The notes beneath the pieces are model-generated. The model ran no database searches and was not told the DNA's origin. It saw only the letters and a program-made list of their open reading frames with translations. DNA of 64,000 nt from Gaertneriomyces semiglobifer (lineage: Eukaryota; Chytridiomycota; Chytridiomycetes; Spizellomycetales; Spizellomycetaceae): the NCBI GenBank assembly GCA_025558075.1, contig JAHLKF010000015.1, positions 1 to 64,000 of the forward strand. Direction: 5' to 3'. A program made the position numbers and the translations under genes. Below, one piece after another: positions 24,500 through 51,200 of the stretch; the first letter of the stretch is position 1; each line of letters begins with the position of its first letter.

Positions 24500-24746
24500 C
24501 TGCGGTAGGATCTCTATAGTATACATCACGTTTAATACATCATATACTGTACCGCAACATATGTTACAACATGCCGGACTATGTCCGAAAGCATTCGGAC
24601 AATTTTAAGGTTGACGCGCACCGCTACCTTGACTCATCGAAGCCACCGCCACTCTGCTTATGTAATCGCCTCAGCCGCTAACACAACTGTGCCAGTCACG
24701 TGTATTGGTCGCAAACCCAGAATTTCCACTGTCGAAGCGCGTTCAA

Positions 24747-24769
24747 ACCGGCACAGTCATAGGAATTTA
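24747..24769 (+). repeat. 23-bp direct repeat, right copy
   Basis: Identical to 23991-24013; lies four bases before the copia fragment begins at about 24774. Confidence 0.85.
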
Positions 24770-24846
24770 CTTACCGATGATGAAGTCTTTGAAGTCGAGT
24801 CAGGTATTCTGAACCTGAATGGAACGACGCGTTCAACTTACACGGC

Positions 24847-26694
24847 TTGCCCGTTGTTGATGAATATTTCGCTCGTAAGCACCAATCCCCGGAAATTGCA
24901 CCTACAGTCGAGGCATTAGTAGCATCCGCTCTCGACGGTCCCAGTGCCCGGGAACCCGTCACTTATAAGCAGGCACTGCGCTCACCTGACCGTCATGCCT
25001 GGCAGCAGGCCATCGATAAAGAACTCCAATCCTTGCTCGCTAATCAGACCTGGATGCCCGTCGACGCCTTGCCGTCTGATGCTTATGCCATCGATTTTAA
25101 ATGGGTTTTCAAGATTAAACATCACCCGGACGGGTCCATCAAGAAGTGTAAGGCCCGCCTTGTTGCCCGTGGGTTTACCCAGCGCCCGGGTCTCGATTTC
25201 AATGAAACCTATGCCCCGGTTGTCAAGTTCAGCACGCTCCGCCTGTTTTTGGCTCTCTCTCAGCTCTTCGGCCTTGTCGTCCACCAAATGGATGTCCTCA
25301 CGGCATTCCTGAACGCTGTAATCGACACCGTCATTCATATGCAACTCCCCGACGGGTCGTACGTTAAACTCCTATGTTCGATCTATGGGTTAAAGCAGTC
25401 ACCGCGCTTATGGAACCAAACCCTTGACACTTATCTGAAGTCCGTTGGTTTCCAACCTACGGTTCTTGACACCGCGCTGTACATTCGCCCTGCTGCCGGC
25501 GGCACACCTGACATCATCGCCCTGTACGTTGATGACCTCACCATCTGCTCCACGACGGCCCGCATACAGTCCATTAAGGATGGTCTTGCCCGGCGATTCG
25601 TGATGGAGGACATGGGGGAGATTTCATACATTCTTGGCATTGAAGTCACACGCACTGCTGATACACTGACACTGAACCAAGGCAAATACATTGATGACAT
25701 GCTCCTTCGCTATGGCCTTGTCGATGCCGCACCTGTCACTGTTCCACTGTCGCCAAGTTTATCGCTTGTCGCTGCGTCCGAAACCGATGTCCTGGCCGAT
25801 CAAAAGCTTTATCAGTCAATAATTGGAAGCTTGATGTACCTTACCATCGCTACGCGGCCCGATCTTGCCTTCGCAATCTCCAAATTGTCCCGCTTCTTGT
25901 CGAAACCCACTGAACAGCATCTGAACGCTGCACGTCGGGTTCTCTGCTATGTAAAAGGCACCCGAAACCTTAAGCTCCACTATGGCTCTCGAGACGGGGG
26001 AGCAAACTGTTCATTGCACGGTTATTCTGATGCCGATTTCGCTGCAAATGCCGAGAACCGACGTTCGACGTCGGCGTACCTTTTCCTCCTGAACGGAGGC
26101 GCTATTTCATGGGCATCCAAGCTCCAGAACTGCACGGCGCAATCTACAGCAGAAGCAGAATACATTGCGTTAGCTGAGGCCGCTAAGGAAGGGGTATGGC
26201 TCCGTCGACTGATGATTGCGCTCCTCGAGCACTTTCCACGCACTGACACCACACGGTCCATCCTCCCCGGCACTGAACCCGGCACATATGGTGCTCTGAC
26301 AGTGTACGAGGACAACCAGGCAGCCATCAAACTTGTCAACAACCCAGTCAATCACAACGGTACTAAGCACATAGATCTCCGTCATCACTTCATCCGCGAA
26401 AAGGTCCATCAGACCCAGGAAATCGTTCTCCGCTATGTATCCACCAATGATCAGCTTGCTGACGGACTTACCAAGGCCCTAGCAGCACCTGCTCTGAACA
26501 GCATGCTTCCCTGCATGGGTTTCCGCACGTTCGATGCTTCTGACAAGTTGTTGACAGCGTCCGACACTGCTGACAAGCTGATGACAGTGTCTGACAAGGT
26601 GCTGAAGGTGTCTGACACTGCTGACAGGTTGCTGACAATGCCTGACACTGCTGACAAGCTGCTGAAGGTGTCGAACACTGACAATAAGCACTGA
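24847..26694 (+). pseudogene. copia pol fragment: reverse transcriptase and RNase H
   Basis: 615-codon frame that begins inside pol (no true start). It carries the reverse transcriptase domain (SKWVFK-equivalent, ARLVARGFTQ, YAPVVKFSTLR, IYGLKQSPRLWNQ, YVDDLTIC) and the RNase H domain (YSDADFAAN, TAEAEYIAL, EDNQAAIKL, HIDLRHHFIREKV). It ends in the degenerate Ser/Asp/Thr/Ala/Asp/Lys/Leu repeat tail seen in the intact copy. Cut off from a promoter and from integrase, it is a remnant. Confidence 0.9.
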
Positions 26695-26754
26695 ACAGTT
26701 GCTGAAGGTGTCGGGCAGTTTGCAGGAAATGTCGTGCATGCACCGAGGGGGGAG

Positions 26755-27031
26755 TGTTGTAAGGGGGTCCCGGTGACATACATGTCATAGGGATACCCTA
26801 ACCAGGGCGCGCGCTATGACATGGGTTCTTATCCATATCAGCACACACACGTTCGTCATGTGCCCATGAGCACGTGACCCATGTGACTGGGCGCCCCAAC
26901 ACCTGACACGTGATTTTTTCCGTCGGGTGGTTCTCTTATGCCGGGCATTCAACTGTACTCTTAGAACCTTGGACTTGAATACACATAAGCTTATTAGAAG
27001 GACCAGAGCCTCAGCAGGATCCTCTGCAACA
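26755..27031 (+). repeat. copia LTR (277 bp)
   Basis: Starts TGTTGTAAGGGGGTCC, directly after the polypurine tract CGAGGGGGGAG, and ends TCCTCTGCAACA. Same family as the LTRs at 37448-37725, 42534-42811 and 44713-44989. Confidence 0.92.
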
Positions 27032-27161
27032 ATCTTTAGTAGAATGAGGACATAGTTTGAGCTTTAGATCATTACTTTCTCCAGGGCGGTTACATGCCAC
27101 TCTAGCCGCAAATACCTCTGGCGTGGTGGCGTGCGAATGCACGTTCATCCGTTACTAGTAC
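27032..27161 (+). pseudogene. 3' tail and right end of a second Fanzor element
   Basis: These 130 bp match 45160-45293 except for a 4-bp gap and one C/T change. They include the last codons of the Fanzor reading frame (to the TAG) and the downstream right-end sequence up to ACTAGTAC, after which the two loci diverge. The body of this Fanzor copy was lost or replaced by the copia element ending at 27031. Confidence 0.85.
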
Positions 27162-33575: not shown

Positions 33576-35012
33576 ATGCTACAGTTAGTGGATAAGTACG
33601 AGCAATTTGTCCTCAAAAATGCCCCTCAAATTAGCGGTATTGAGAGTGGTATTCGGTCACTGACCTACATTTTGCCGGGTGAGTTATCGTTGATAGATGT
33701 ATTGTTCTTCTGGCTTCCCATGCTAATACTACCAGTGCAGGTCGGTTCAACGATGCCGACATGGCCTCCGAAGCGAGTACGTTTGCCTACTTATCGTCTG
33801 CTTGATTTCACCTTTTGACAGTGACCTATCCGTAGTCTTCGCGGCCGTGAATCTCATGTCCCTTTACCATGACTCCATCCTCGCCGAGGCCGCACTTGCA
33901 CAACAACCGGAAGCTCCAGTGACTCGCTTCAACCGTTACACCCGGCACATGCTGCGAAACGGCAGCCTGTACAGGACAGTTGCTTATGCTTTGACCTTGA
34001 CACAATTATCAGAAGCGCTCATGGAAATGGTTGCAACGAAAGTGGGAGGTCACAAAGGACGAGGGAGAGCAATTATTGGCATTGAAGCCGCAAAGTGGGT
34101 ACCCGCACCAGAATGAACTCGAGCAGATGGGCATGTACCAACTGGCGCTTTTAGGGTTGTCTGCCGGATAATGCTGTTACGACTATCACGTGGCCGAATG
34201 CTGTTGCATTCAAATGTGCCAGAACGAGACTATGACATGTCAACGGTGAAGCCGTTAGATGCGGAGACGCCGTCAGGGCGCTGGGTAGGGAAAAGAACTG
34301 GAAGAGAACATCTACATGTAGACGTTATTGCTCGGAAGGATAAAGGTGGATATGAGCATGCCATGCAATATCTTCTGTCAAAGGCGCTCGTGGACTCTGC
34401 TCGGACACCGATAGATCTTCTCAAAGTGATGAACGCTTGGCGGACGTTTGGAGATTATCTCTTTGCCTTGCGCCCTCTCGTTTACGGTATGTTCAACTGC
34501 TTATTTTACTTCTGATGTATACACTGTAGTGATACTAATGATACTCTGTGCTTAGTGCTTGCCTTGAAGAAGTACGGACGTAGATCGTGGAAGCCTTTGA
34601 TTATCTCACTGGTGACCGAGCTGTTGAGCTTAAGCACGTCGCTTAGTTCCAAGCCTTTTGGCTTCCGAGAGGATCTAACACCATTGGAGAAAGACGAATA
34701 CAAACGGAGATGCTGGTACATTCTCTACTACTTATTGCGGAATCCTCTTTACGATAAGTACACCAAGTCTGTGTCCGAGCCATCTTTGCTTGTACCAATG
34801 ATACTATGCTCACCACGTATTTCCTCAGGGACAGACTGGATGGATTCATAACTTCGGCCTCGGAGAAGCCACTAATATCTCTTATTGCTGGTAAGTTCTT
34901 CATTCAGCTTGACAAAAACGATGCCCGGTTACCAACAGTCACGACTGCAGGCGTGTTGCGAGATTATCAACCCTTATGGGAAAAATGGCATTTCTACACC
35001 AGTGCCTATTAA
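33576..35012 (+). CDS. PEX16: peroxin PEX16 (peroxisomal membrane protein)
   Basis: Multi-exon gene. Characteristic blocks in order: YEQFVLKNAPQISGIESGIR and LTYILPG, GRFNDADMASEA, LSVVFAAVNLMSLYHDSIL, a helix TLTQLSEALMEMVATKVGG, GRAIIGIEAAK, LFALRPLVY, LALKKYGRRSWKPLIISLV, EYKRRCWYILYYLLRNPLYD, and EKWHFYTSAY before the TAA at 35012. Several short GT-AG introns interrupt it. PEX16 sits in the ER and peroxisomal membrane and recruits PEX3 during early peroxisome formation. The start at 33576 is the first in-frame ATG; exact exon borders are by eye. It converges on PDK1 with only 52 bp between stop codons. Confidence 0.88.
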
Positions 35013-35064
35013 TTAGTCATAATTTCATTGTTACAACCCTGCTTTTCCGCCACCTATTGGGCAT

Positions 35065-36800
35065 TCATTTCTTCGACATAGTCGTCTTATGTACAGAACA
35101 TATACATTCCACCCAACGCTTCGCGTCCACATCTCCTTTGGCACACTTGAATGAATTAACGGCTTTAGAAAATGGGGCTTTCGAGCACGCACAAAGTCTA
35201 TCATACCTCAAGATAGTAAGTTCGTTTTGGTGTGTGTACAAAGAAGTGTCTCCCGCCTTTGAGTTCCACTGTGAGCTTATCCGACCACGGAATCTCAGAC
35301 TTGGGTTCCATTTTAGACTCATCATAGAACATCAGCCGTGGCAAGTCTGTTAGTACCAGGCCGCGCTTCTTAGAGAAAAGCCCTTTGCGCTATCGCACTG
35401 TTTTAGAGAACGTCCTACGCGGCGCAAACGAAAACACCAGGCACTTGAGGACTCACTTTATGAACCATTCCGCTCAAAACAATCAACTCGCCATGAGCCA
35501 AAAATCTCCTCAGTGGAGAACTAGCTTGTTGCGCCAATTTGATGTCCCTCTCACTGTTAGCACTGCTTTGTCGGTTCATTACTTCCGCAAATGGATCTCG
35601 CGTGGCGGCATCCACATCACCGTGAAACTGTCCAGTCCCCACAGTCATTTGATCCATATCACTGGTAAGGTCAACAATATTGTGATCCGATGTTGCCGGG
35701 AGGAATGGTCGTAGCACAGGGGCGGCCTGAGACGGCAGGTCTGTCCAATCAAAGCCCGAAAAGAATGCATGCGTTCGGATTTGTGGAATCGTCAGGCGCT
35801 TCGCTGGATCAAGGACCAGGATGCGGCTCACAAGATCTTGAGCGACTTCTGGAAATCCATCCGGAAAGCAATAGTCAAGTTTCGTGATTTTTTGAAAAGT
35901 CTGATATTCATTTGGGCCCTTAAAAGGTGGCTTCCCTGACAGTAGGTGGTACAGGATACACCCTAGTGCCCAGACATCCGACTCTTTCGAGGCCGCACGA
36001 TCATTAAGTAGCTCCGGAGAGCAATACTCCGCCGTGCCCACAAACGAATTTCGCTTTGCAGACTTGTCGCTGCCGTCCATGGTAGGTTCTGACGCACTCT
36101 CCAATATCTTTGCTGTCCCAAAGTCGGTGACCTACATCGCCATGCCATCAGTCTTCACGAGACAGATGATGTGCTCGCGTTGCGCACTACCTTTATGTGG
36201 CGGTGTTCGTCCAGCAAGATGTTCTGCACAATGATGGGAAGTAACTCGGATCCTCTTGCAAGGTAGATGTGATCGAAGGCTTACCTCGGGCTTCAAGTCC
36301 CGATGAATGATGCCCATCTGGTGCATATAGTCCACCGCTTCAATTATCTCAGCAATGTAGAATCGTGCCCCGCTCAATTCGAATGACCCCAGCTTTCGTA
36401 TATAACCCAACAAGTCCCCATCTTTTGCCAGTTCCAACACAAAGTATAATGATCTTGCATCCTGAAATGTGTAATAAAGCTTGACAATAAACGGGTGACA
36501 TAGGCGGTTGAGGACGTCTTTTTCGATGTTCACGTACTTGACCTTCTTCTCCTTGACGATATGCCTCTTATCAAGCGTTTTGACCGCAAACTCCTTGCCT
36601 GTACTTTTTTCGCAAGCGTAAACCACCGTAGAATAGGAGCCCTCGCCAAGGAGCCGGCCAAATTCAAAGTCTGCAGGCGTCCTTTTCTGCAATGCGTTGT
36701 CTGACGGGGTGGATGGCCGACTTCCACGAGGCGAAGCTGGATTGCTGGAGCGGCTGGTGTTTCCGTCGACTCCAGCAAGTGCAGCATCTGATCCTGACAT
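35065..36800 (-). CDS. PDK1: 3-phosphoinositide-dependent protein kinase 1
   Basis: Five exons: 36285-36800, 36191-36223, 35457-36131, 35207-35389 and 35065-35145, giving 495 residues. Kinase motifs: glycine loop GEGSYSTVV, catalytic Lys in FAVKTLDK, HRDLKPEN, DFGTAK, and the activation segment SFVGTAEYCSPELL whose Ser is the autophosphorylated site in the family. A C-terminal PH domain of the PDK1 type follows (KGLFSKKRGLVLTDLPRLMF, KLTVELKGGRHFFVHTPKRT, AKRWVECI). PDK1 phosphorylates the activation loop of AGC kinases (AKT, S6K, SGK; Pkh1/2 targets in yeast). The 11-codon exon NILLDEHRHIK lies between two short introns. Confidence 0.95.
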
Positions 36801-37356
36801 GAATACCGTTCCGCTGGCCCGCCCAAGAGCGGTTGACTATCGCTTGATTGCAACCTTATTTGCCTCACTTTGTCCACTGAGAGAATGGGAGCTGTCTCTG
36901 ACATCTCACACGCGTGTTGCCAATGGCATTAACAGAACTTCTGATACAATTTGTACACACATGAATCTAAATATAATAAGGAGATAGTTGTCCGTCCGTG
37001 TGTCCACGTGATCGCGTCGCTTATGTAACAACTCCGCTTCCTGCCGTAGGATGCTGCGTGTTGCCCCCATTTGCCTCTTTGCTCTTTTGCCAACGTTAAC
37101 AAACATCCCGGTGGCAAGTCAGGTGAATTGAAAGATGAGATCTCATCAGATAAACCAGATGAAATATGGCTGGAGCATAACCTCTATAAAAAGGGAGGAG
37201 GTCAGGCAGCGCTCTTTCCTTTGCCTCATTACCAGTCGGGCATGGGCTCTTTTTGAAGGCCCTAGCTCTCTGAATCTTTTTCCCTCTCGGCTTCGGCTCT
37301 TGACTTCTTTATTTTCATTTCAGTATTGACAGACATCAGTTTATGGCTTCAACATC
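36801..37356. other. intergenic region with left part of Fanzor element
   Basis: 556 bp between the divergent starts of PDK1 and the Fanzor gene. The left end of the Fanzor element should lie here but I could not find an inverted match to the right end at 45293. Confidence 0.4.
37185..37192 (+). promoter_or_regulatory. TATA box upstream of Fanzor gene
   Basis: TATAAAAA in the context CCTCTATAAAAAGGGAGG, 165 bp before the ATG at 37357. Position and sequence fit a core promoter; activity unproven. Confidence 0.45.
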
Positions 37357-37447
37357 ATGGCGAGGCAACTTAAAAAAAAGCGAAAGATGGATGTACTATC
37401 ACCTCAGAGTAATACGTTATTGAATTACTTTGCTACTGCGTCTACAC

Positions 37448-37725
37448 TGTTGCAGAAGGATCCTGCTGATGCTCTGATCCTTCTAATAAGCTTATGTGTA
37501 TTCAAATCTAAGGTTCTAAGAGTACAGTTGAATGCCCGGCATAAGAGAACCACCCGACGGAAAAGGTCACGTGTCGGGTGTTAGGGCACCCAGTCACATG
37601 GGTCACGTGCTCATGGGCACATGACGCACGTGTATGCACTGATATGGATAAGAACCCATGTCATAGCGCGCGCCCTGGTTAGGGTATCCCTATGACGTGT
37701 ATGTCACCGGGACCCCCTTACAACA
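37448..37725 (-). repeat. 3' LTR of copia element
   Basis: 278 bp, TGTTGCAGAAGG...CTTACAACA on the plus strand; three differences from 42534-42811. Confidence 0.95.
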
Positions 37726-37737
37726 CTCCCCCCTCGG
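37726..37737 (-). other. polypurine tract of copia element
   Basis: CCGAGGGGGGAG on the minus strand directly abutting the 3' LTR, the expected site of plus-strand DNA priming. Confidence 0.85.
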
Positions 37738-37785
37738 TGCATGCACGACATTTCCTGCAAACTGCCCGACACCTTCAGCAGCTGT

Positions 37786-40700
37786 TTAGTGCTTATTTTC
37801 AGTGTTCGACACCTTCAGCAGCTTGTCAGCAGTGTCAGGCATTGTCAGCAACCTGTCAGCAGTGTCAGACACCTTGTCAGGCACTGTCAGCAGCTTGTCA
37901 GCAGTGTCGGGCGCTGTCAGCAACTTGTCAGAAGCGTCGGACATATGGAGACCCATGCGAGAATGCATGCTATTCAGAGCAGGTGCTGCTAGGGCCTTGG
38001 TAAGTCTGTCAGCAAGCTGATCATTGGTGGATACATAGCGGAGAGCGATTTCCTGGGTCTGATGGACCTTTTCGCGGATGAAGTGATGACGGAGATCAAT
38101 GTGCTTGGTGCGATTGTGATTAACTGGGTTGTTGACAAGTTTGATGGCTGCCTGGTTGTCCTCGTACACTGTTAGAGCGCCGTGCGTGTCGGGGCCATGT
38201 TCAGTGCCCGGGAGAATGGACTTGTGGGTGCTATTTTGTGAAAAGTGCTCAAGGAGCGCGATCATCAGTCGACGGAGCCATACTGCCTCCTTAGCGGCCT
38301 CTGCTAACGCAATGTATTCTGCTTCTGCTGTAGATTGCGCCGTGCAGTTCTGGAGCTTGGATGCCCATGAAATAGCGCCTCCGTTCAGGAGGAAAAGGTA
38401 CGCCGACGTCGAACGTCGGTTCTCGGCATTTGCAGCGAAATCGGCATCAGAATAACCGTGCAATGAACAGTTTGCTCCCCCGTCTCGAGAGCCATAGTGG
38501 AGCTTAAGGTTTCGGGTGCCTTTTACATAGCAGAGAACCCGACGTGCAGCGTTCAGATGCTGTTCAGTGGGTTTCGACAAGAAGCGGGACAATTTGGAGA
38601 TTGCGAAGGCAAGATCGGGCCGCGTAGCGATGGTAAGGTACATCAAGCTTCCAATTATTGACTGATAAAGCTTTTGATCGGCCAGGACATCGGTTTCGGA
38701 CGCAGCGACAAGCGATAAACTTGGCGACAGTGGAACAGTGACAGGTGCGGCATCGACAAGGCCATAGCGAAGGAGCATGTCATCAATGTATTTGCCTTGG
38801 TTCAGTGTCAATGTATCGACAGTGCGCGTGACTTCAATGCCCAGGATGTACGAAAGCTCCCCCATGTCCTCCATCGCGAACCGCCGGGCAAGACCATGCT
38901 TAATGAACTGTATGCGGGCCGTCGTGGAGCAGATGGTGAGGTCATCAACGTACAGGGCGACAATGTCAGGTGTGCCGCCGGCAGCAGGGCGAATGTACAG
39001 CGCGGTGTCGAGAACCGTGGGTTGGAAACCAACGGACTTCAGATAAGTGTCAAGGGTTTGGTTCCATAAGCGCGGTGACTGCTTTAACCCATAAATCGAA
39101 CGTAGGAGTTTAACGTACGACCCGTCGGGGAGTTGCATATGAATGTCGGTGTCGATTACAGCGTTCAGGAATGCAGTGAGGACATCCATTTGGTGGACGA
39201 CAAGGCCGAAGAGCTGACAGAGAGCCAATAGCAGGCGGAGCGTGCTGAACTTGACGACCGGGGCATAGGTTTCATTGAAATCGAGACCCGGGCGCTGGGT
39301 AAACCCACGGGCAACAAGGCGGGCCTTATACTTCTTGATGGACCCGTCCGGGTGATGTTTAATTTTGAAAACCCATTTAGAATCGATGGCATAAGCATCA
39401 GACGGCAAGGCATCGACGGGCATCCACGTCTGATTGTCAAGCAGGGATTGGAGTTCCTTATCGATGGCCTGCTGCCAGGCATGACGATCAGGTGAGCGCA
39501 GCGCCTGCTTATAAGTGACGGGTTCCCGGGCACGGGGGCCGTCGAGAGCGGATGCTACTAATGCCTCGACTGTAGGTGCAATTTCCGGGGATTGGTGCGT
39601 ACGAGCGAAATATTCATCAACAACGGGCAAGCCGTGTAAGTTGAACGCGTCGTTCCATTCAGGTTCAGAATACCCGACATACTTAACAAAATATTGATGC
39701 TCCCCCGGCGGTGCGATCCGTTCATCAACAATGTACTCGACTTCAAAAACTTCATCATCGGGAGCGTCGGGAGCGGGATCGACATAGTTGGTTTCATCGA
39801 ACGTGACGTCGCGGGACCGATGAATGCGCTGTGTCAGGGGATCGTAGAAACGGTAACCTGCGGAGTCAGTGTACCCGATCAGTTTCATGCGACGGGCCCG
39901 GGGTTCGAGCTTTTTATGGGGACGGCGTTCGACGGGGATATGAACATAAGCGTCGGACCACAAGACCCGCAGGTTCGCCACGTCCGCGGGAGAACCGTGC
40001 CATTTTTTGTATGGAGTTGCATTGCCGATGGCGCGGGACAGCGTGCGCTGACAGAGGTAGTTGACAGCAACGACGATTTCCCCCCACAGGTGCTGAGGTA
40101 TGTGACTCGACAGCATGACCGCCCGGGTTTGTGTCATTAACGTCTGATTATAACGCTCGGCGATGCCGTTTTGTGCCGGAGAGTATGCGTGGGTGGGACG
40201 AACCCGGGTGCCGTGCTGCCGAAGATCGCCGACAAGGGCATGACTCAGGTATTCGCCGCCGTTGTCGCATCGCAGTTCAAGGATTTTGCATCCATGGAGG
40301 TTTTCAGCATGTTGGCGGAAAGCGTGGAATTCGGCGGGGACATCGTGTTTATTTTTGATGATGGCGACATGTGCGTATCGAGTAAGTTCGTCGATGAACG
40401 TGACAAGGTACGGGCAGTGATCGAGGGTGTCATGCTCGACTGACTGCACGTCACTGTGGATGCGACCGAGGATGCAGGTGGCAGGTTGGGGGTTGTCATG
40501 ATTGAATGGAGAGCGTCGGGACTTAGCGACACGACACCCAACGCATGTCGCAAGGGTGCCGGGCGCGGAAATGCCGTATGCGCGAAGCGCTAGTTGGAGA
40601 TTAGCAGCGCTCGGATGACCGAAACGTAGATGCCAGAGCTTAAGGGTGACAGAGTCGGCGGAACTAGGAACAGGGTCAGCGATAACATGTGAAGTAGGCG

Positions 40701-41991
40701 GTATATTTTGTGAATAAGCAGTGTCAGCAGCCGCAATCGCAGGTGTCGAAGGTGTCGGAGGTGTCGGCGGTGCCGACGGTGTCGACTCGGTCGAATTGGT
40801 CGATTCCGGTCGATTTGTCGGAAAGTGCTGTGCCATCGTGTCGGACGCGTGAAGTTGCTGTGCCATCGGAGGCGCAGTGACAGCAGCAGGGGGCGCAGTC
40901 ACGGACGAATCGTGGGTGTACCGGGATGGGCGACGCGCGGTACATGCGGACCTGCGGCGGGGATGACTGGTGTAGGCTTCATATTCAGCCGGAGAGGCGG
41001 TTGTGTACCCGGCAATAAAATAAAGTTTATTGCGACGTATGACATCAGCTACACGAGCACCCGACTTGCGATGAGTAATCCACCCGGCACTAAGATCAGC
41101 CGAGAAGTCTAAGGCATAACGAGACTGGGCCAATGATGCAAAGGAGAGCAGGTTCCGCGGACATTCGGGAGCATAGAGCACGTCAGTAAGCTTAAGGAAA
41201 CCGTGACGTGTGTTGATGATTAAGGTTCCCTTGCCGTAAGCAGCGCACGTGCCAATGCCGGAGATTTGTCGAGCCGAGGGAAAAGCTTGAAATTCCGTCA
41301 GAAGGAAGCGATCGTGAATGATGCTATGTGTGGCGCCCGAATCGAGAGCGATGGAGTGCGGCGAGTCACGGTCAGTCGATAAGACAAGGAAGGCCTCGGG
41401 ATCGGAGTCGGTGTCAGTGTCGGAGTCGGGCGGGCCGGAGTCCTCGTCGTCGTGTGCAAGTTCAGCGGCATGTGCGGCCGGGTGGGACTGAGCGCGTTTC
41501 TTGGCGTCAATGACAAGGGGACAGTCACGAACATAGTGGGTTCCTTGGGTGCAGATGTCACAAGGATGGGCCGCCGGCCTGGGACGGCGACGGGGGTGCG
41601 TGGCCGCGGTGGCAGCGGCAAAGGCTTCAGGAGTCCGAGGTTTTGTGTATACTGACGCATCCAGGTCCAGTGCGGCAACTTGTAAGGCGTCGAGGGTCTG
41701 GGTGTCAGCGGCAACTCGATTTCGAATGCGATCACGAACCGAGGGTTTGAGACCGCAGATGTAAGTAAGGCAAACATCGTCAGAGTCCATGTTTGGCAGG
41801 GTTAAGCGAATTTTCTCGAAAGCAGAGTTGTATTCGCCGACGGTACCGGTTTGAGAAAGGTTTCGCAGGGCAAGGCATTGGGAGTCCAGATATGCAGCAG
41901 GAATGAAGCGTTGATGGAGCGCACGACGGTGGGGTTCCACTGAGTAATAACGTCGGCTTTTGCGGCAGAGCGGTTCCAGTCTTCCAGCCAT
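37786..41991 (-). CDS. copia Gag-Pol polyprotein (frame from mid-gag to RNase H)
   Basis: 1401-codon frame (no true start; it continues gag after a frame change). Domains in order: end of capsid (CLTYICGLKPSVRDRI), zinc knuckle CDICTQGTHYVRDC (CX2CX4HX4C), aspartic protease ALDSGATHSI, HHCC zinc region (WHLRFGHPS ... CVGCRVAKS), integrase core with HSDVQS, RCDNGGEY and NGIAERYN, a chromodomain (VFEVEYIVDERI ... YFVKYVGYSEPEWNDA) encoded near 39630-39770, reverse transcriptase with YVDDLTIC, and RNase H with YSDADFA, AEAEYIAL and DNQAAIK. The tail is a degenerate repeat of SDTADKLL-like units. Chromodomains are a hallmark of Ty3/gypsy chromoviruses, not of copia. Confidence 0.93.
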   Translation of the reverse strand: MAGRLEPLCRKSRRYYSVEPHRRALHQRFIPAAYLDSQCLALRNLSQTGTVGEYNSAFEKIRLTLPNMDSDDVCLTYICGLKPSVRDRIRNRVAADTQTLDALQVAALDLDASVYTKPRTPEAFAAATAATHPRRRPRPAAHPCDICTQGTHYVRDCPLVIDAKKRAQSHPAAHAAELAHDDEDSGPPDSDTDTDSDPEAFLVLSTDRDSPHSIALDSGATHSIIHDRFLLTEFQAFPSARQISGIGTCAAYGKGTLIINTRHGFLKLTDVLYAPECPRNLLSFASLAQSRYALDFSADLSAGWITHRKSGARVADVIRRNKLYFIAGYTTASPAEYEAYTSHPRRRSACTARRPSRYTHDSSVTAPPAAVTAPPMAQQLHASDTMAQHFPTNRPESTNSTESTPSAPPTPPTPSTPAIAAADTAYSQNIPPTSHVIADPVPSSADSVTLKLWHLRFGHPSAANLQLALRAYGISAPGTLATCVGCRVAKSRRSPFNHDNPQPATCILGRIHSDVQSVEHDTLDHCPYLVTFIDELTRYAHVAIIKNKHDVPAEFHAFRQHAENLHGCKILELRCDNGGEYLSHALVGDLRQHGTRVRPTHAYSPAQNGIAERYNQTLMTQTRAVMLSSHIPQHLWGEIVVAVNYLCQRTLSRAIGNATPYKKWHGSPADVANLRVLWSDAYVHIPVERRPHKKLEPRARRMKLIGYTDSAGYRFYDPLTQRIHRSRDVTFDETNYVDPAPDAPDDEVFEVEYIVDERIAPPGEHQYFVKYVGYSEPEWNDAFNLHGLPVVDEYFARTHQSPEIAPTVEALVASALDGPRAREPVTYKQALRSPDRHAWQQAIDKELQSLLDNQTWMPVDALPSDAYAIDSKWVFKIKHHPDGSIKKYKARLVARGFTQRPGLDFNETYAPVVKFSTLRLLLALCQLFGLVVHQMDVLTAFLNAVIDTDIHMQLPDGSYVKLLRSIYGLKQSPRLWNQTLDTYLKSVGFQPTVLDTALYIRPAAGGTPDIVALYVDDLTICSTTARIQFIKHGLARRFAMEDMGELSYILGIEVTRTVDTLTLNQGKYIDDMLLRYGLVDAAPVTVPLSPSLSLVAASETDVLADQKLYQSIIGSLMYLTIATRPDLAFAISKLSRFLSKPTEQHLNAARRVLCYVKGTRNLKLHYGSRDGGANCSLHGYSDADFAANAENRRSTSAYLFLLNGGAISWASKLQNCTAQSTAEAEYIALAEAAKEAVWLRRLMIALLEHFSQNSTHKSILPGTEHGPDTHGALTVYEDNQAAIKLVNNPVNHNRTKHIDLRHHFIREKVHQTQEIALRYVSTNDQLADRLTKALAAPALNSMHSRMGLHMSDASDKLLTAPDTADKLLTVPDKVSDTADRLLTMPDTADKLLKVSNTENKH

Positions 41992-42242
41992 GTAAGGGCA
42001 TGGTCGCGGAGATTGCAGACAGCGACTAAGAAAAGGTCCTCCTCAGTTAGATCGGGGCGTAAGGTGTGAATCATGTTGATGGAGCGGATGAAGGTCAACA
42101 GCCGGGGGGCGGCATCCTGGGGATTGCCGTCGAACAGGGTGATTTTCTTAAGCGTGTCGGTTAACAGTCGTTCAGCGAACAGTGACGGAGGGTTGTCGGG
42201 GGCCGAGAATTCCTTCTTGGCACTGCAGGTCGAGCGGGCCAT
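41910..42242 (-). CDS. copia gag N-terminal part
   Basis: Starts MARSTCSAKKEFSAPDNPPS at the ATG at 42242. Capsid-like sequence (ITLFDGNPQDAAPRLLTF, LRDHALTWLEDW) reaches TQWNPTVVRS, after which the continuation HQRFIPAAYLDSQCLALRN is in another frame (the 37786-41991 ORF). The break falls in mid-capsid, not at the gag-pol border, so it is a mutation rather than programmed frameshifting. The miniature element at 6669 begins with nearly the same residues. Confidence 0.85.
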
Positions 42243-42256
42243 CTAAAAAAAAGTGT

Positions 42257-42520
42257 TATACACAGGCAAGGTGCAATAAGGGTCAGTTGTCGTTGAACAC
42301 AGGCGGGGTGTTCAATAAGCAGTTGTCGTTGATCGCAGGCAGGGGGATCAATAAGTGTCAGGCGTCGTTAATCGCTGGCAGAGGGATTAACGGTGTCGGG
42401 AGCGTCGTATGTCGGGAAAACAGCGTGATCGCTCGGGCAAGTGAGGAATCGTCGGTAACGGGCCGTTCCACCCGGAGACTGAAGGGCAGAGGATAAGCAG
42501 GTAACAGCTATCGATGCCAA
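42257..42520 (-). repeat. copia 5' leader with short tandem repeats
   Basis: Untranslated leader between primer-binding site and gag. Contains units such as CGTTGATCGCAGGCAGGGGG, related to the expanded block at 7140-7569 of the miniature element. Confidence 0.7.
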
Positions 42521-42533
42521 GGGGCTCATAACC
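42521..42533 (-). other. primer-binding site complementary to initiator tRNA-Met anticodon arm
   Basis: The plus strand reads GGGGCTCATAACC next to the 5' LTR. Eukaryotic initiator tRNA-Met contains GGGCUCAUAACC around its CAU anticodon, so a tRNA cut in the anticodon loop could prime here, as shown for Drosophila copia and yeast Ty5. The same 13 bases sit beside the 5' LTR of the miniature element (7570-7582). Confidence 0.75.
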
Positions 42534-42811
42534 TGTTGCAGAGGGATCCTGCTGATGCTCTGATCCTTCTAATAAGCTTATGTGTATTCAAGTCTAAGGT
42601 TCTAAGAGTACAGTTGAATGCCCGGCATAAGAGAACCACCCGACGGAAAAGGTCACGTGTCGGGTGTTAGGGCACCCAGTCACATGGGTCACGTGCTCAT
42701 GGGCACATGACGCACGTGTATGCACTGATATGGATAAGAACCCATGTCATAGCGCGCGCCCTGGTTAGGGTATCCCTATGACGTGTATGTCATCGGGACC
42801 CCCTTACAACA
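42534..42811 (-). repeat. 5' LTR of copia element
   Basis: 278 bp, TGTTGCAGAGGG...CTTACAACA on the plus strand, followed by TACAC duplication. Confidence 0.95.
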
Positions 42812-42985
42812 TACACCAGCACCAACACCAACACCAGTACCACCACCAGTACCACCACCAGTACCACCACCAACACCAGCATCAGTACCAACCTCAACAC
42901 CAGCATCAGTACCAACACCAACACCAGTACCACCACCAACACCAGTACCACCACCAACACCAGCATCAGTACCGGCACCAGCACA
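42812..42985 (+). repeat. CCA-rich coding repeat in Fanzor N-terminus
   Basis: Degenerate CACCAACACCAGTACCACCA-type units encode a Pro/Thr/Val/Ala-rich tract in the Fanzor frame, with internal larger-unit duplication. Other frames give His/Gln-rich or, on the minus strand, Leu/Val-rich artefacts. Confidence 0.85.
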
Positions 42986-44712
42986 AAAGCATTCCAGCAT
43001 CAAGTGCTCCTTATTGGCCATTCTCAAAGACGGTTATCATGTACCGATCAATGCCTTCATTCGTACTGCAGGCAATCTTGCCTGACACACCACATTTTTC
43101 CTAAAGTACTGGCTGGCCCATTATGACACATCACTTTACAATGCGGACTTTCCATCGATCACTAACAAGCACGTATGGATGGCTTTCCAGTTGCTTAACA
43201 AGGGACCAACCGTACAAAGGTCTGAAGAATCGCAGTGGATTCAGGAAGAACTCTGGCCGTTTGTCAATGGATATTGTGCCATTTTTGGTTTTCAACATCC
43301 ACACCTCAAGTACGATCAACAGACAGCACATTATATTGGGGACAGCATCCTGACAAACATCAAAGTCAACGTGCAAGAGCATTTTATGCAGATGTACTTT
43401 CAGTATATCAACATGCGCTTAGCATTTAAACAAACGGTCCAAACACTCAAGGCACAATCTGATGGAGACGAACAGATCCAACTCTTTTATAACTGTGTGC
43501 GTCAGTTCAAAGGGTACGCCACATTTCAAGTGATACCGACCCAAGATGATTGTGACAACCTACCTGCACCAGAATGGGATCTCTTGCAGGAGCTGTGGAG
43601 CCTCTTTCCACCACAAGACGACTGTTTACAATACAAAATCGTTGCCGACCCTCTTGCCTACATAGGACCCTATTGTGGACTGTCGCGACTTTTTGAGCAA
43701 AATGGCATGCCATTATTCAGTGCGATCCCACTCCGTCAAAGTAGAGTACAATCATCGATCCATATTGACACTGTAATCCTGGCAACACATATTCTTGGAC
43801 TATCTCGCTCACACATCGGCGCAATCACCAAGGAACGAAAGGAAGAGCTATGGGAACAAGTGTTGCGCTTAGAAAAGAAGGTCTTCAAGCACCGAAAACA
43901 TCTTGGCCTAGAGTTTGACTACTCAATTACAACAAATGGGTACAGCGCATCCATCCACCTGAAGCATCCGGCTCTGCGCTACGGCTATAAGCGTCCACAT
44001 CGGTCCAAAGCCGCACTGCAGCAAGAAGTGAAAGGCCTCTATGTCGAGAACCACATGAAAGAGCTACAACATGCACCAAATATTGTAGTCATTGACCCGA
44101 ACAAGCGAGACATGCTTTTTTGTTGAGATATCAAAGAAGGACTTTCATTTCGTTACACATCCAACCAACGGGCATTTGAAACCAAGTCACGTGTGTTCAG
44201 ACGAGAACTAGAAGCCCTCAAAACAGACGTCGGTGTTCAGGATGTCGAGACAGCCATTTCTAGCCACAAAAGCATTGACGTTGAATCATTTGCCGCGTTT
44301 ATTGCATTCTTTCAAGCAAGCACTACGACACTGCAACCTTTCTATGATCAGTCAGTTCACCTGAAGAATCGATTCAAGGCGTATTCACTGAGGCAAAGAT
44401 CTGAAAAGCAAGCTGATCAAGAACATGCGCAAACAGTATGGCAAACGGTTTACTGTGGTTCTTGGAGACTGAAATGATGCCGGACGAACAATGCGATTCC
44501 AGACCTCGAGCAAAACAGTCGGCTTTCGCAAACTGTTCAGCAGAAATAGGATCCCGTGCTTTTTATTGGACGAATATCGAACCTCCTCCCGCTGTCTGTA
44601 CTGTGAAGGCGAGTTGGTCAAAAATTTTGAGACACGTCCCCATTCTCGACCTTGGCAACGTGCACAAGGAGCCACGGAAAAAGTCCACGGCTTGCTGGGT
44701 TGTCCCAACCCT

Positions 44713-44989
44713 TGTTGTAAGGGGGTCCCGGTGATATACACGTCATAGGGATACCCTAACCAGGGCGCGCGCTATGATATGGGTTCTTATCCATATCAGC
44801 ACGCACACGTGCGTCATTTGCCCATGAGCATGTGACCCATGTGACTGGGTGCCCTAACACCTGACACGTGATCTTTTCCGTCGGGTGGTTCTCTTATGCC
44901 GGGCATTCAACTGTACTCTTAGAACCTTAGACTTGAATACACATAAGCTTATTAGAAGGACCAGAGCCTCAGCAGGATCCTCTGCAACA
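44713..44989 (+). repeat. solo LTR of copia family
   Basis: 277 bp, TGTTGTAAGG...CTCTGCAACA, flanked by ACCCT (44708-44712 and 44990-44994). No internal element sequence: a product of LTR-LTR recombination. It splits the Fanzor zinc-finger region (LLGCPNP / DCTKQ). Confidence 0.95.
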
Positions 44990-45159
44990 ACCCTGATTGT
45001 ACAAAGCAAGACTGGCCTCTCCGTCGGGTTCCCAAGCCTGGCTGCAGCGATGTCCGCAGACTCATGAAGATGAAGCTGTTCAACCGAGACGTGCTTAGCA
45101 CCCACAACATGGTCAAGATTGTTCAATTCATGCTGGATCACGATGGACATCGACCCCCT

Positions 45160-45293
45160 ATCTTTAGTAGAATGAGGACATAGTTTGAGCTTTAGATCAT
45201 TACTTTCTCCAGGGCGGTTACATGCCACTCTAGCCGCAAATACCTCTGGCGTGGTGGGTGGCGTGCGAATGCACGTTCATCCGTCACTAGTAC
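45160..45293 (+). ncRNA. Fanzor right end and candidate guide-RNA scaffold
   Basis: Covers the last Fanzor codons, the TAG at 45181, and 110 bp of downstream sequence conserved in the second copy at 27032-27161, ending at ACTAGTAC in both. It can form nested stems: CCAG...CTGG outside GCGG...CCGC between about 45212 and 45250. In characterised Fanzor elements the guide RNA is transcribed from the 3' end of the element and overlaps the end of the ORF, so this is the expected place. RNA status is inferred only. Confidence 0.45.
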
Positions 45294-45296
45294 TAT

Positions 45297-48200
45297 CTAG
45301 TCAACTTTCAGATACAGATCTCCTATCCTGCGCAGAAACTCCCCTATTGCGGTTCGAACCTCTGGCCTGTCCACACTGAGCATGCCGACTACCAACTGGT
45401 AGTACTCAGGAATATGTTGGATAAGTTGACTACGGGTCGCAGGCGCATCTGCAGGCGCTGTAACTGGAAGGGAAATCCAGAGTTCCTCAACGGTCAAAAG
45501 CTCATTCAGCACCTGAACTACCACGGGGCTCCACAACCCAATGTGCAATTCATTTCTTTGAGGCTCTTTCAGAAAGCCCGCATAGCGGCGGAAGAAGTCT
45601 AATGTCTCACGAACGAGATCGCCAACCGACTCGTCGTCATTGCGTTGCTCACTTGGAATACGATAGATAGCAAATAGGACTTTTAGGTAAGTTCCAAAGC
45701 TGACCGTCTCCTGCTTCACCAAATGCGGTAATTGCGGCACGAGACCTCGTCGGAAAATCGCATATCGTAGCTCGTTTTCTTCATTGAACGCCCTTGCAAC
45801 TGCATAACTGTTGTATAAGCATCGTAGCCAGGACCGTCTGTTCGCAGGCGGTATTATGTTGACGGCGAATAGGATGGAGCGCTCAGGATCAGGGAGCTGC
45901 GATTGTGACGTTTGATTATTCACAGCGGGAGCAGGAGTATCACCTTCAATGTAAAGACTCGCGTCGCTTCCCCTCCGTCCGGTACCAACCAGCTTAGTGA
46001 AAGCGATGTCACGCATTGCTTGGACCAGTTCAAGATGTGTGACACATTTAATCAACGTGTGTTCGAAATCCAACGTATCCAACGTCACTGTGATCCCCGA
46101 CGCTCTCGCAGCATCGTACCCTGCCACCAACGCTTGCTTGCCGGTATCACTGTCATCTGTCGGAATCGGTTTTAATCCCTTCCCATAATCACAGCATAGA
46201 AGTTCCACAGGTAGTGTAATTGCAAAAGCCTTTTCGAGCTGTTCAGTGATTAAGTCCCACGCACCGCATTTGCCGAACTTGCCGAGGTTATCTTTCACGA
46301 AGCCATGTAGAAAGATGCCTCCAGTAGTTGCAAGTTTCTCGTCTCTGCGTTGTAGCATGCCAGTCAATAATTCTAAGAGACCTTTTAAAGAATCACCGCG
46401 ACTCTCGCTTGCGAGCCGCACGAATAATGACGTCGTCAGGTCAACCAATAGCCGCAATCCGTGGACCCATATCGCAGTATCCGTTTCCTTGCCACGTGCT
46501 CGGCGCGGCTCTTGAGAATCAGAATCTGTCCGTTCGCTCAAATCCGCAAAGATTGGAAAAATCACGCCGCGTTGGATTTTCTTCCAGTAATCAACGGAGA
46601 ACATATGACCGCTGATTTTGAGGGTATCAAACAAGGTATCCATCGCTCGAGTTCTGACAAGTGAACTGTCAGAGTCAATAATAACACGTGAGAACGCTGA
46701 CAGAATGGGGAACCATTTCAAAAAGAAATGATCTTCGCTCACGGTCCCATCTGGAAGCAGATACGGTTGTGATGAAACTCTCAAAGTAGGTGCAGGCACG
46801 GGCGGGAGCCCATTAACCTGAAGGGTCGGAGTCACAGACTTGATTGCCTCAACTTCACCTTGTGACAGCCTTCTTGGCTTGTTGTCAAAGGTCTCAACCC
46901 CGCGCTTGACGAGATAGCTGGCGCATGCCTGCAGCAATTGAATGCTGCCCATAACTACATCATCCGGGGCAAAGTTGGCATCGAGTAAAGCAAACTCGGC
47001 CAGGCAGGAGATATAGTCCACAAAGGCCCCTGCATTCATAACCGCATCAAAGTGCTCTTTGAAGACGTTCTGAACAATGCCGAAGGCCATCTTCACTAGT
47101 TTACCGTCCCCTGTACTCGTCTGGGCAGCTTTTGCGAGCACTACGAAGATGCTGCGCCAGCCGCTTCGAATGCTTCGCGCCCGAGCGGTGATCATTTGAG
47201 ACATGCTACTCAATATTAGCTCGCGGATGTTCGGATTCGTGTTATGCTTCATGATCCATTCAAAACTTCTCAAGAACTCGTTTTGAGCCGAATAATGCCC
47301 TAATTCTTCTCTCTCAAGGAATTTCATGCTCAATTGGCGCAGAGAGTCCACCGCAAATGTCGACACCATGGGATTCGGGTGGCAGGCAACAGTATTGAAA
47401 TATGGTTGCAATATTCGCCAAATCTGGGTCCATTCAAAACGAATGCGGGGCATATTATAGTACGCAATCTCGACAATCTTCTGTAGTAGGTACATTCTTG
47501 GCATTGCGGTCGACAGTATTCTCGGAATATGTCCTGATGGCGTTGATGGGTCTAAGCCAACCTCTTCCATGGACACATGGCATAAGCAGCGGAAGAAGTG
47601 TATAATGGCAGTTGCTGACAAGTTGAGTGTGTTGGTGAAAATCCGATCTACTGCAACCACTGTTTCCTGCGAATGAAATTCTGCAATGAGCTTTCCTACG
47701 GCGGCATTAGGTTTAGAATTGCTGGTCAAGTCTTCAATGGTACGATAGCCGCCACGAGACGGCAGCGATTTGTCATTGTAAAAATCCTGGTTGTTATCCT
47801 CCGAGTTACGAAAGTCAGAGTCGTTGCTGGTCCTGGCTGTGCGACCAAAGGAAGCATGGTTCGCAATCAATTGAAGCCGCTCGAGCTGTGATATAGCTTT
47901 CAATACCTGCATCCAACTAGACTCCAGATATTCGCCGAGTGCGTTGGCAATCTTTATTAAAGTCTTGATGGCTCGTACATTCTTGGGCTTGATGTCGTGA
48001 ATGTGAGAAAGGCCTGTGAGTTTGGATAATGATGTGACAAAAGCATCTCGTTCAGTCTCCATACGGAAGATACTGGCCAAACGGATAGAGCCCGAGAACC
48101 CTTCAAGGCAGAGATCTACCGGTCGTGGATCGGTAGAAGACGATATGGTGAAGCCATCCACATCCTCCTCCTCAGGGACTGCTTCAAAGGCGAGACTAAA

Positions 48201-51200
48201 GACAGCCATCAACGGCCAAGAAGCTCTCCCAAACATTGGACGCGCTAGCTCTGGACTCATCGCAGTGCGGAACGGCGCAACAGCTCGCTGCGCATTCTGG
48301 ATAAGCTGCTGACTTTTTTGTTGAACGTGTTGAATTTCTCGTCTATAAAGCTCCATCCGTTGACGGTCGTTTAAATCCCCTGCTCCCCATCCGATGGCCA
48401 TCTGTGCTAATTTTCCAACATGCTCTTCCTCCATGATGATCTCGTTAGCAGCTACCTCATCAAAGATGGCCTCAAGGTACTCCTGTGGTAAGTCACCGTC
48501 GTCGTTGATTCCATGGTTATTCTTCACAAACGCAGCCTTGTCCATAGGGTGTTTGATTTGCGGCGAGTGCTGATCAGTATTTAACATAATCACTGAAAAT
48601 GCGAGTGTATAGGCTGCATCAGCTTTAGCAAAGACGTCGGGATTTGTCTCAAAGTAACGGTCGGCAAATTTCTCCATTATGCGGTCAATCTTCTGAGCTT
48701 CGCCGGGTAATCGAAATGTTTGTAAAAATGCGCGAAGCGCAGCTACGAAACCCATGCCTGTGAAGTCTAGCATGTCAATAAATGCGTGCATGACATCTAC
48801 ATTGAAAGCATCGCCCTCGCCCAAATACTCTCCAATGGCAGCTTTGGTAAGAGATTCGTTGTTTCTGAGAAACTGTGCGATTGACATGACATCGTCCTCT
48901 ATGAACCCATGCTGGACCAGCGCGCCCACACCTTTCTTTGGTTTCAGGTTGAACTGTCGGATACATTCACGCAAAAGTTCCTTGCGGGATGCCATGTTCT
49001 CAATCGCGTAGGATTCCTCCTCTGGGGTTACAGCGTCAAAGGAATCCACTGAAGCGCTGCGCCGTGGAAGTCCATATGGCGTCTAAAAGCAGAATATTTA
49101 ACATTAAAGAAAGGGAAGTAACTCAATACAACGGATGCTTACATGCTCCATGGACACTGCTCTTAATGGATTCTTGTTCACCAACACAGGATGAGCCTGT
49201 TTAGTTGCAGATAAAGCGTCCAAAAATGTAGCGGCTGGGTTTTCCGCAGCCGGTTGTGTCGGGGTACTGTCGGATGGGCTTGACGCAGTCGGCTTCTCCT
49301 CACCAAGCGAGGTTCGTGGAATCATGTCCCCAGCACCATAGGTGCTGGATTTTCGGGTATCAAAGCTGCCTCTAATCTTTCTCTTCTCAACAGGCAACCA
49401 TGGCGCGACATCCACACTCCATTCAACTAATGACTGGACAAGTGCAGCCAGACAACAGAGACCCATCAACTTTAACCGTTTCTCTTGCGTCTTAACCATC
49501 TGCTCTCGAGTGTCGAGCCCGGCAGCACTGACGGCGAAACCAACCAGACCTCCTGCCATATTTGCGGAGCTGTTTTCGCGCCCTTGAGAGACACGACTGC
49601 AGACAGTCACAATTCTTTCAAATAAAGATACCATGGCTATGTCGCAATCATAGTTAACATAAAGGTCAGCTAGGGTCTACAAGGCGCCAAAAATCAGTAC
49701 TTGCGGAAACGTACCAAGACATTCAAACGTACCTGAGGATTTTCACAGATCTTCAACAATCCCTGCAGAACCATGCGTTTCTGACTATACGTTGAATTTC
49801 CCATTTCGACAATATGCAAGTAAATGGTATTCAGAAGGACCTCCATCTCCGGTTTGAGTCTGCTACGATAATATCTCATGACCATTAGGAAGATCGAGAG
49901 ACTCAGCTCGAAAAGAACTGGGTTCGTAGTGACACTGTTGCGAGATATCGAAACGCACAGGCTCTGCCTTATAAGGCCCATGTACAACTCGTCCGTTTGG
50001 AATACGGAACCACAATTATTCATGATAGACAGAATCAGCTCCAACGCGAGCTGTCTCGCTTTAACCGCTTGAGTTGATAACTCGCCCATCGGCAAAGCTG
50101 CGACTTCCTTCATAGACGCCACGCTGGAGGCGCTGCTAGGTCCGTGAGGGTTGTCCGACGTGACGGATGCGCGGCACAGAAGTCGGAAGACTATAAAAAC
50201 GTCCTTGCGCAGCAGCTCGTTGTAATGGGCGATAGTCGGATTGTAGGGGTTATTCGCTTCAACAGTGGTGGGCTCCCCGGGCGATTGCGGAGTCGGACTA
50301 GTAGACGATTCGTGATTCGCAACCGTATCTTCGGTGCTATGGGCGGGTTCCGTAACTTCCTCGTCTCCCGTTTCTGCGGGCTCATGGGAGTCTGTGCCAT
50401 GGGCTTCAAGCTCATTACTTCCGTTGGGAACAATGGTAGGCAAAAGTGCATGTGCAGTGTCAAGGTCAGGACTGTCTGGTGTTTCCTCAATCTGCGTTGC
50501 GTGTTTTGCCAGGTCATCAGTAGCCGATGTATCATCACCAGGACTTGCAACCTCATTGATGGATGTATCGCTTGCGAGCGTATCCGATGTCAACGACTTG
50601 GAGTCCGTTGGAAGAATAGCTTCGGTGCCGGTATCGCTTTTTTGCGATGACCTCATGGAATCGTTGGCAACAGATTCTGCAGCCGATTTACTATCTGATG
50701 TGGCCTGCACAATCGTCTCCGGCGTTGATGACAGTCCGGTCCGTATACCAATTAACTTTTCTATTTCCGCCATTGAACCAGTCTCGCGGCTTCGTGCGAG
50801 CACCTGAGAGTATCGTTCCATGCGTGAAAAGATCAAATTGATCATCTGCGTCAGTGACGCCTTTGCGGTCATCTGGTTCACCTGCACCTTGGAGTACAGA
50901 TAAATGTTGAAGCAAGTTTGGACCACTTTCAACAAGGAAACGTCATGGATTTCGCAAGTGGTGGATGTGACAGCAGTAAGCAAGACTTTGAGGACCTGCA
51001 GTTGAACGGCTTCATCCGTCTGTCCACCCAAAAACGTGGTACATACGGTATGTATGATCTCATCTATGAGAAAGGGCTTCGGCGGGTAGTGAGGAGCATC
51101 GGGCACCAAGAGAGAAGAAGACCTTTCCGTGAATATGGGTGGAGCGGAAAGACTCGATGCACCTTCAACGCCGTTTCCACCGTCTGCTTCCGGCGTTGAT

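Follow-up and report, generated by a model that had tools for sequence, protein, structure and literature searches.

A Fanzor1 gene of the chytrid Gaertneriomyces semiglobifer broken by three TGA codons, a frameshift and two inserts from one Ty1/copia family

Introduction

How does a gene for an RNA-guided nuclease come to be struck twice by one family of retrotransposon, and does any intact copy of it survive? The question is raised by positions 37357–45183 of the window studied here, a 64,000-bp stretch of the soil chytrid Gaertneriomyces semiglobifer (bases 1–64000 of contig C15, JAHLKF010000015.1, in a 20.86-Mb genome of 66 contigs). An earlier inspection of the letters alone, below called the original prediction, had read there a Fanzor gene split by a full-length copia element and a solo long terminal repeat (LTR). 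By sequence comparison the locus is a Fanzor1 gene, of the type that encodes an RNA-guided DNA-cutting enzyme. We place at about 0.93 the probability of the whole account, in which a Fanzor1 mobile element like that of SpuFz1 from Spizellomyces punctatus was broken by three TGA codons, a frameshift and two copia insertions. Our search of the open literature found no paper on Fanzor in Gaertneriomyces and none on chromodomain-bearing Ty1/copia elements in chytrids; others may exist.

Results

The gene pieces are collinear on a solved Fanzor1 protein

The longest piece of the frame (43086–44126) matched SpuFz1 (PDB 8gkh) with an E-value of 1.1e-75 and the Fanzor1 of Parasitella parasitica (PDB 9cf0) with 3.4e-10. 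Three further stretches, 44127–44477, 44473–44712 and 44992–45180, matched SpuFz1 with E-values of 3.1e-13, 6.2e-32 and 1.6e-4, respectively. Four pieces thus lie collinear on one solved protein at low E-values, and the match is not due to chance. Three pieces were also collinear against Fanzors of Fimicolochytrium: 44127–44408 corresponds to residues 312–404 of protein P0004, 44413–44469 corresponds in another frame to residues 407–425, and 44990–45183 is 47% identical to P0004 over 62 residues (E 2e-13). RuvC codons for Asp (44094–44096), Glu (44572–44574) and Asp (45088–45090) stand at the places of D383, E541 and D606, the catalytic residues given for SpuFz1 (PMC10432273). Inspection by eye of the alignment with SpuFz1 and P0004 revealed a zinc finger, with two cysteines before the solo LTR and a cysteine pair around it.

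In a tree, 43086–44123 and the G. semiglobifer paralogue P0001, which is 95% identical to the window Fanzor, nested among Fanzor1 proteins and grouped with the Fimicolochytrium sequences (support 99/98). The F. jonesii Fanzor1 proteins P0002–P0005 are the closest named relatives outside the species (51–55% identity) and form the sister group. F. jonesii belongs to the Powellomycetaceae, whereas the window host belongs to the Spizellomycetaceae, and this disagreement between tree and family taxonomy raised horizontal transfer from Fimicolochytrium. We do not propose it, because an S. punctatus sequence (P0017) lies inside the wider Fimicolochytrium/window group and old paralogy therefore suffices to explain the tree.

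Two insertions, three stop codons and a frameshift

The frame runs on the forward strand from an ATG (37357–37359) to a TAG (45181–45183). Its opening piece (37357–37447; MARQLKKKRKMD...) is basic and resembles, by eye, a nuclear-localisation signal; this extreme N-terminus has no direct match to a Fanzor sequence, and its assignment rests on a second copy of the gene, copy B, in which it is contiguous with the rest of the frame. After the copia element the frame resumes at 42812–43085, with a Pro/Thr-rich repeat and N-terminal domain that are free of copia in copy B, up to the first TGA (43083–43085). The main piece, 43086–44126, carries the first RuvC Asp codon and ends at the second TGA (44124–44126). 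Piece 44127–44412 has close to its end a frameshift, placed at about 44400–44413 by matching the frames to P0004. The shifted frame, 44413–44712, holds the third TGA (44470–44472), the RuvC Glu codon and the first half of the zinc finger, and 44990–45183 holds a target-site copy, the second half of the finger, the last RuvC Asp and the stop. Each of these three TGA codons has a sense codon as its counterpart in another copy.

The larger insert is a full-length Ty1/copia element of 5,364 bp on the reverse strand (37448–42811; Pfam rve, SH3, Chromo and RVT_2), flanked by a target-site duplication (TSD) of TACAC (37443–37447 and 42812–42816). Its 278-bp LTRs, 37448–37725 and 42534–42811, differ at three of 278 aligned sites. 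The smaller, a solo LTR 277 bp long (44713–44989, forward strand), belongs to the same family, is opposite in orientation to the full element and is flanked by ACCCT (44708–44712 and 44990–44994); alignment with either LTR of the full element shows 13 differences in 277 aligned sites and one gap of 1 bp. Copy B carries no copia at the position of the full element (4647–5217 of fetched locus L012) and reads through it inside an open frame (4601–5263). Nearly all that the original prediction had proposed for the gene was confirmed by these comparisons: a Fanzor, hit twice by one copia family, collinear across the copia element, decayed by three TGA codons and one frameshift, and retaining RuvC Asp, Glu and Asp together with a zinc finger.

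Every Fanzor1 copy found is broken

Paralogues, which the prediction had left to be sought, do exist. Searches of the genome, in which the best candidates were scored, found no intact Fanzor1 among the copies. In addition to the window copy (copy A), they found copy B, in pieces on contigs C1, C63 and C15 (at 27 kb); a 5′-truncated fragment on C7 (copy C, L063; 84–86% identical); and a distant copy on C43 (34–35% identity) with four TGA and two TAA codons. Copy C crosses the site of the solo LTR without an LTR, with a small deletion there.

Copy B is 97–98% identical to copy A. Its 5′ flank (C1:693927–694321) matches the left part of the window element (36966–37356, forward strand; 98% over 394 bp), its next part is the L012 stretch on C1 that lacks copia, and its middle lies on C63 (L011 1831–2693; C63:1814–2650 is 94% identical to the window Fanzor). 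We assign to it a second 3′ tail within the window (27032–27161, forward strand), which is 96.3% identical over 134 columns to 45160–45293 and abuts a truncated copia at 24799–27031. Copy B is split by insertions in its turn. Just past the start codon lies a 27.8-kb element (C1:694322–722145, with ends in L050 and L012) that has inverted arms of 347 bp, 98.6% identical, and about 5 bp nearly duplicated at its ends. A virus-like element, which C1 and C63 carry in inverted orientation, interrupts the copy at the position corresponding to 43304, and copia elements of the same family as the window inserts do so at those corresponding to 44166 and 45159. The left LTR of the copy B copia (L035, L018, C63) is close to the full element in the window, differing at two of 277 sites, and its right LTR (L035, L018) falls in the other LTR subgroup, as if by recombination.

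A, B and the idea of self-inflicted breaks

No target duplication is visible where the virus-like element meets copy B, which would fit the idea that the Fanzor nuclease drew the insertions by cutting the DNA. We regard this idea as highly improbable, since the two insertions in the window gene are each flanked by a 5-bp TSD, as an integrase leaves.

Several observations on the virus-like element stand apart from the gene. Its stretches (L012 from 5218, L011 1–1830 and L018 985–8097) would belong to one element, and its end lies side by side with the truncated copia and the Fanzor 3′ tail in the window (24618–27161). It carries a tRNA-Asp, together with two weak matches, one VLTF3-like and one adenovirus-fibre-like, that score below the cut-off. 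A DNA_pol_B_2 match (PF03175, with 14 matches in the genome) lies 11 kb on, at C1:734079. None of seven open reading frames (ORFs) of the element matched in a PHROGs search, and its 535-residue ORF had no match of note in Pfam or the PDB. Two ORFs may resemble capsid and penton proteins.

A separate TnpB/Fanzor-like gene on C13 (L001, C13:268953–270302) has an uninterrupted frame of 450 codons and matches PF07282 with 54.9 bits; it resembles the TnpB-like L79 (E 3e-11). Contigs C10, C25 and C7 hold relatives of it in a decayed or incomplete state.

Element ends, 3′ tail and points that weigh against the assignment

A 3′ non-coding tail (45184–45293, forward strand) is common to copies A, B and C, with a mean column identity of 88%, and the likeness stops at one point in all three. 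In SpuFz1 loci the guide RNA is described as coming from the region between the stop codon and the right end (PMC10432273), which is the place of this tail. At the left boundary copy B has CATA and the window copy CATG, and past the right end copies A and B have TA and the C7 copy CA; SPu-1 elements have a TA target duplication with CA ahead of the left end (CATA).

Several points weigh against the account given here. First, a genome search with PF07282 (Cas12f1-like_TNB) did not report the window gene. Second, hmmscan of four pieces, which are short, found no Fanzor/TnpB family in Pfam. Third, PF26935, the family that names the homologues, of which 26 out of 27 carry it as a precomputed annotation, was not reported by a profile scan of the window pieces. 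Fourth, the pieces of copy B lie on three contigs, and we infer that they were once a single copy. Fifth, RNA folding of the three 3′ tails was weak and gave no common structure: four cuts of A had z-scores of −1.45, −1.80, −2.12 and −1.29, B had −0.33, and C, whose fold is different, had −3.94. Sixth, a comparison of the left end with the reversed right end gave no sign of terminal inverted repeats like those of SpuFz1, and 471 and 172 of 500 shuffles did as well as the real ends. Because no fold is shared and inverted repeats were not found, a guide RNA from the tail is suggested by position alone. Rfam gave no matches in 35000–47000. As for identity as a Fanzor, the profile scans are all that speaks against it. 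A match to a Pfam TnpB/Fanzor model is no requirement for membership in Fanzor1, and the pieces are short.

The first 30–70 bp or so of the left end recur elsewhere, in short matches on C2, C8, C7, C25 and C10, and a left-end pattern with up to three mismatches occurred at seven places (two for the reversed control). No reversed partner accompanies these recurrences of the left end, and for that reason we considered Helitron ends (5′ TC, 3′ CTAG and a hairpin near the right end); the genome has a single, decayed Helitron_like_N match, and we make no such claim.

Selection and the order of events

Copies A and B differ at 35 of 1,430 aligned sites. In codons without stops, 24 differences are non-synonymous and nine synonymous (dN 0.022, dS 0.028), and the dN/dS ratio of 0.79 is not distinguishable from neutral (Fisher p 0.53). 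A ratio near 1 indicates no detectable constraint on the protein since A and B parted. The persistence of the catalytic codons and the otherwise collinear frame would fit a locus that still functions, with the copia element and LTR spliced out and the stops read through. Three TGA codons and a frameshift on top of the inserts, together with the dN/dS ratio, make this next to incredible. Ten of the 35 differences are of CpG type and 28 are transitions; from these raw counts we do not claim decay of CpG type or like repeat-induced point mutation.

The distance between the LTRs of the full element (about 0.011) is smaller than that between A and B (about 0.024), which fits entry of the copia element into A after the two copies split. 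In a tree of 32 LTRs, the solo LTR had an end branch of 0.0153 and fell in a different subgroup from the LTRs of the full element, so the distance between the two gives no date for the solo LTR. That end branch exceeds the value of about 0.005 obtained by halving the distance between the two LTRs of the full element. An older solo LTR is plausible on this comparison, which amounts to about four changes versus three and does not establish it. The order put forward in the original prediction, with the solo LTR first, is suggested rather than demonstrated.

The inserting copia carries a chromodomain

The element in the window has LTRs, a short TSD and an integrase ahead of an RVT_2 reverse transcriptase, as in Ty1/copia. 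Its polyprotein ORF of 1418 residues lies at 37786–42042 on the reverse strand; a second frame, at 41802–42242, contains the first 146 residues from an ATG, and the gag resembles Retrotrans_gag (PF03732), under the cut-off. A chromodomain sits between integrase and reverse transcriptase (residues 766–812; 39607–39747, reverse strand). PF00385 scored 22.7 bits (E 9.6e-5) in the window element, under its cut-off of 25.1, and 27 of 28 PDB matches of this stretch were chromodomain proteins (best E 7.9e-4).

We scored 8,000 candidate relatives of the copia polyprotein, of which 2,830 passed an E-value of 1e-20. Chromo was present in 18 of the best 120, one of them from Powellomyces hirtus. All four chromodomain relatives scanned exceeded the Chromo cut-off, and neither of two other copia elements had the domain. 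In a 48-sequence tree of the window copy, the 18 Chromo relatives and 29 others (from 30 offered out of 77 that passed a length filter, one being dropped for coverage), the 19 chromodomain sequences made up one side of a branch with an SH-aLRT support of 99. With its root at the midpoint, this tree is compatible with a single gain of the chromodomain in this copia group. Two sources (PMC2774666, PMC5348765), as of 2009 and 2017, describe chromodomains in copia just from the diatom CoDi elements. By the published description the window copia is like CoDi-A and CoDi-I in having a chromodomain after the integrase (PMC2774666, PMC5348765), and it differs from them in host kingdom and in its Retrotrans_gag-like gag. 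The chromodomain-bearing inserter is the most novel point of the case. Elsewhere in the genome, a tandem array (C6:49417–61434) has LTRs of the family at 49417, 53331, 57245 and 61158, spaced by about 3,914 bp.

Repeated insertion of the family in Fanzor DNA

Of the 30 LTR loci fetched, three (L019, L035 and L040) lie in Fanzor DNA, in addition to the full element of the window. These 30 came from 41 listed matches and 145 first-look candidates, and several derive from one element or tandem array. The Fanzor DNA of A and B amounts to roughly 5 kb of the genome, or about 0.02%, and the number of LTR loci in it exceeds the expectation for uniform landing, the one baseline used here. Such an excess tells against passive accumulation, in which dead mobile DNA tolerates insertions that survive by chance and lack of selection. 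We nevertheless hold passive accumulation to be the probable explanation and take it as the default: the dN/dS ratio does not differ from 1, copy B was also struck by the 27.8-kb and virus-like elements, and some landing sites are near host genes.

The bold alternative is guided landing, in which the integrase chromodomain tethers copia to silenced chromatin and silenced Fanzor copies act as a magnet. It draws on the presence of the domain in the window polyprotein and across a whole copia group, on the same three loci and full element, and on the reported steering of chromovirus integration to heterochromatin by chromodomains (cited in PMC5348765). It was not supported by a survey of a small set of landing sites. 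Among the longest outer ORFs at 20 LTR loci, three had Pfam matches, all host-like (APH, Cyclin_D1_bind and RdRP), and none matched a transposon family; most outer 600-bp flanks matched none of the other sequences compared. In addition, selection that clears insertions from genes would leave the survivors gathered in dead DNA without targeting, and the link came to notice in a study that was on Fanzor. We therefore consider guided landing unlikely.

Discussion

The identity and anatomy of the gene, its TSDs, the copies that lack each insert and the decay of the copies can be read directly, and from them we propose the following history. A mobile Fanzor1 element inserted between a protein-kinase gene (35415–36836) and a Sec7-family gene (45297–49082). 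It encoded a SpuFz1-type RNA-guided nuclease, presumably active in the past, with a guide RNA perhaps made from its 3′ tail. Point mutations gave rise to the three TGA codons and a small indel to the frameshift. A chromodomain-bearing Ty1/copia family inserted twice by means of its own integrase, leaving 5-bp TSDs; one insert stayed full length, and the other was probably reduced to a solo LTR by recombination between LTRs. A few bases separate the right end of the Fanzor element from the stop codon of the Sec7-family gene, whose BIG2_C domain is matched through to its end.

The window gene and SpuFz1/SPu-1 are alike in protein family, catalytic residues and a single ORF, and also, by the description in two sources, in that some 107 nt of non-coding sequence follow the stop codon before the element ends (PMC10432273, PMC3627910). 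They differ in that SPu-1 has terminal inverted repeats of 30–33 nt and none were found here, in the Pro/Thr-rich repeat near the N-terminus of the window protein, and in that every copy found here is broken. Eleven Spizellomyces Fz loci are described with embedded genes, including Gypsy/Ty3 in or near an Fz gene (PMC10432273), so the window shows a familiar kind of event; the LTR inserter described there is Gypsy/Ty3, whereas here it is a chromodomain-bearing copia.

What is being lost is a mobile-element gene decaying in every copy found, and not a single host gene. A Fanzor1 family whose relatives are multi-copy in Spizellomyces is seemingly dying or dead in this one soil chytrid, and the case documents nested insertions together with copies that lack each insert. 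Whether the inserter had a part in this loss is a more speculative matter: it is doubtful, though conceivable, that a Ty1/copia lineage of chytrids and metagenomes gained a chromodomain once, homes to silenced mobile DNA and so extinguishes Fanzor. If that link were true, the locus would make it possible to test whether one mobile element can steer the extinction of another, and would extend chromodomain-bearing copia beyond the diatoms.

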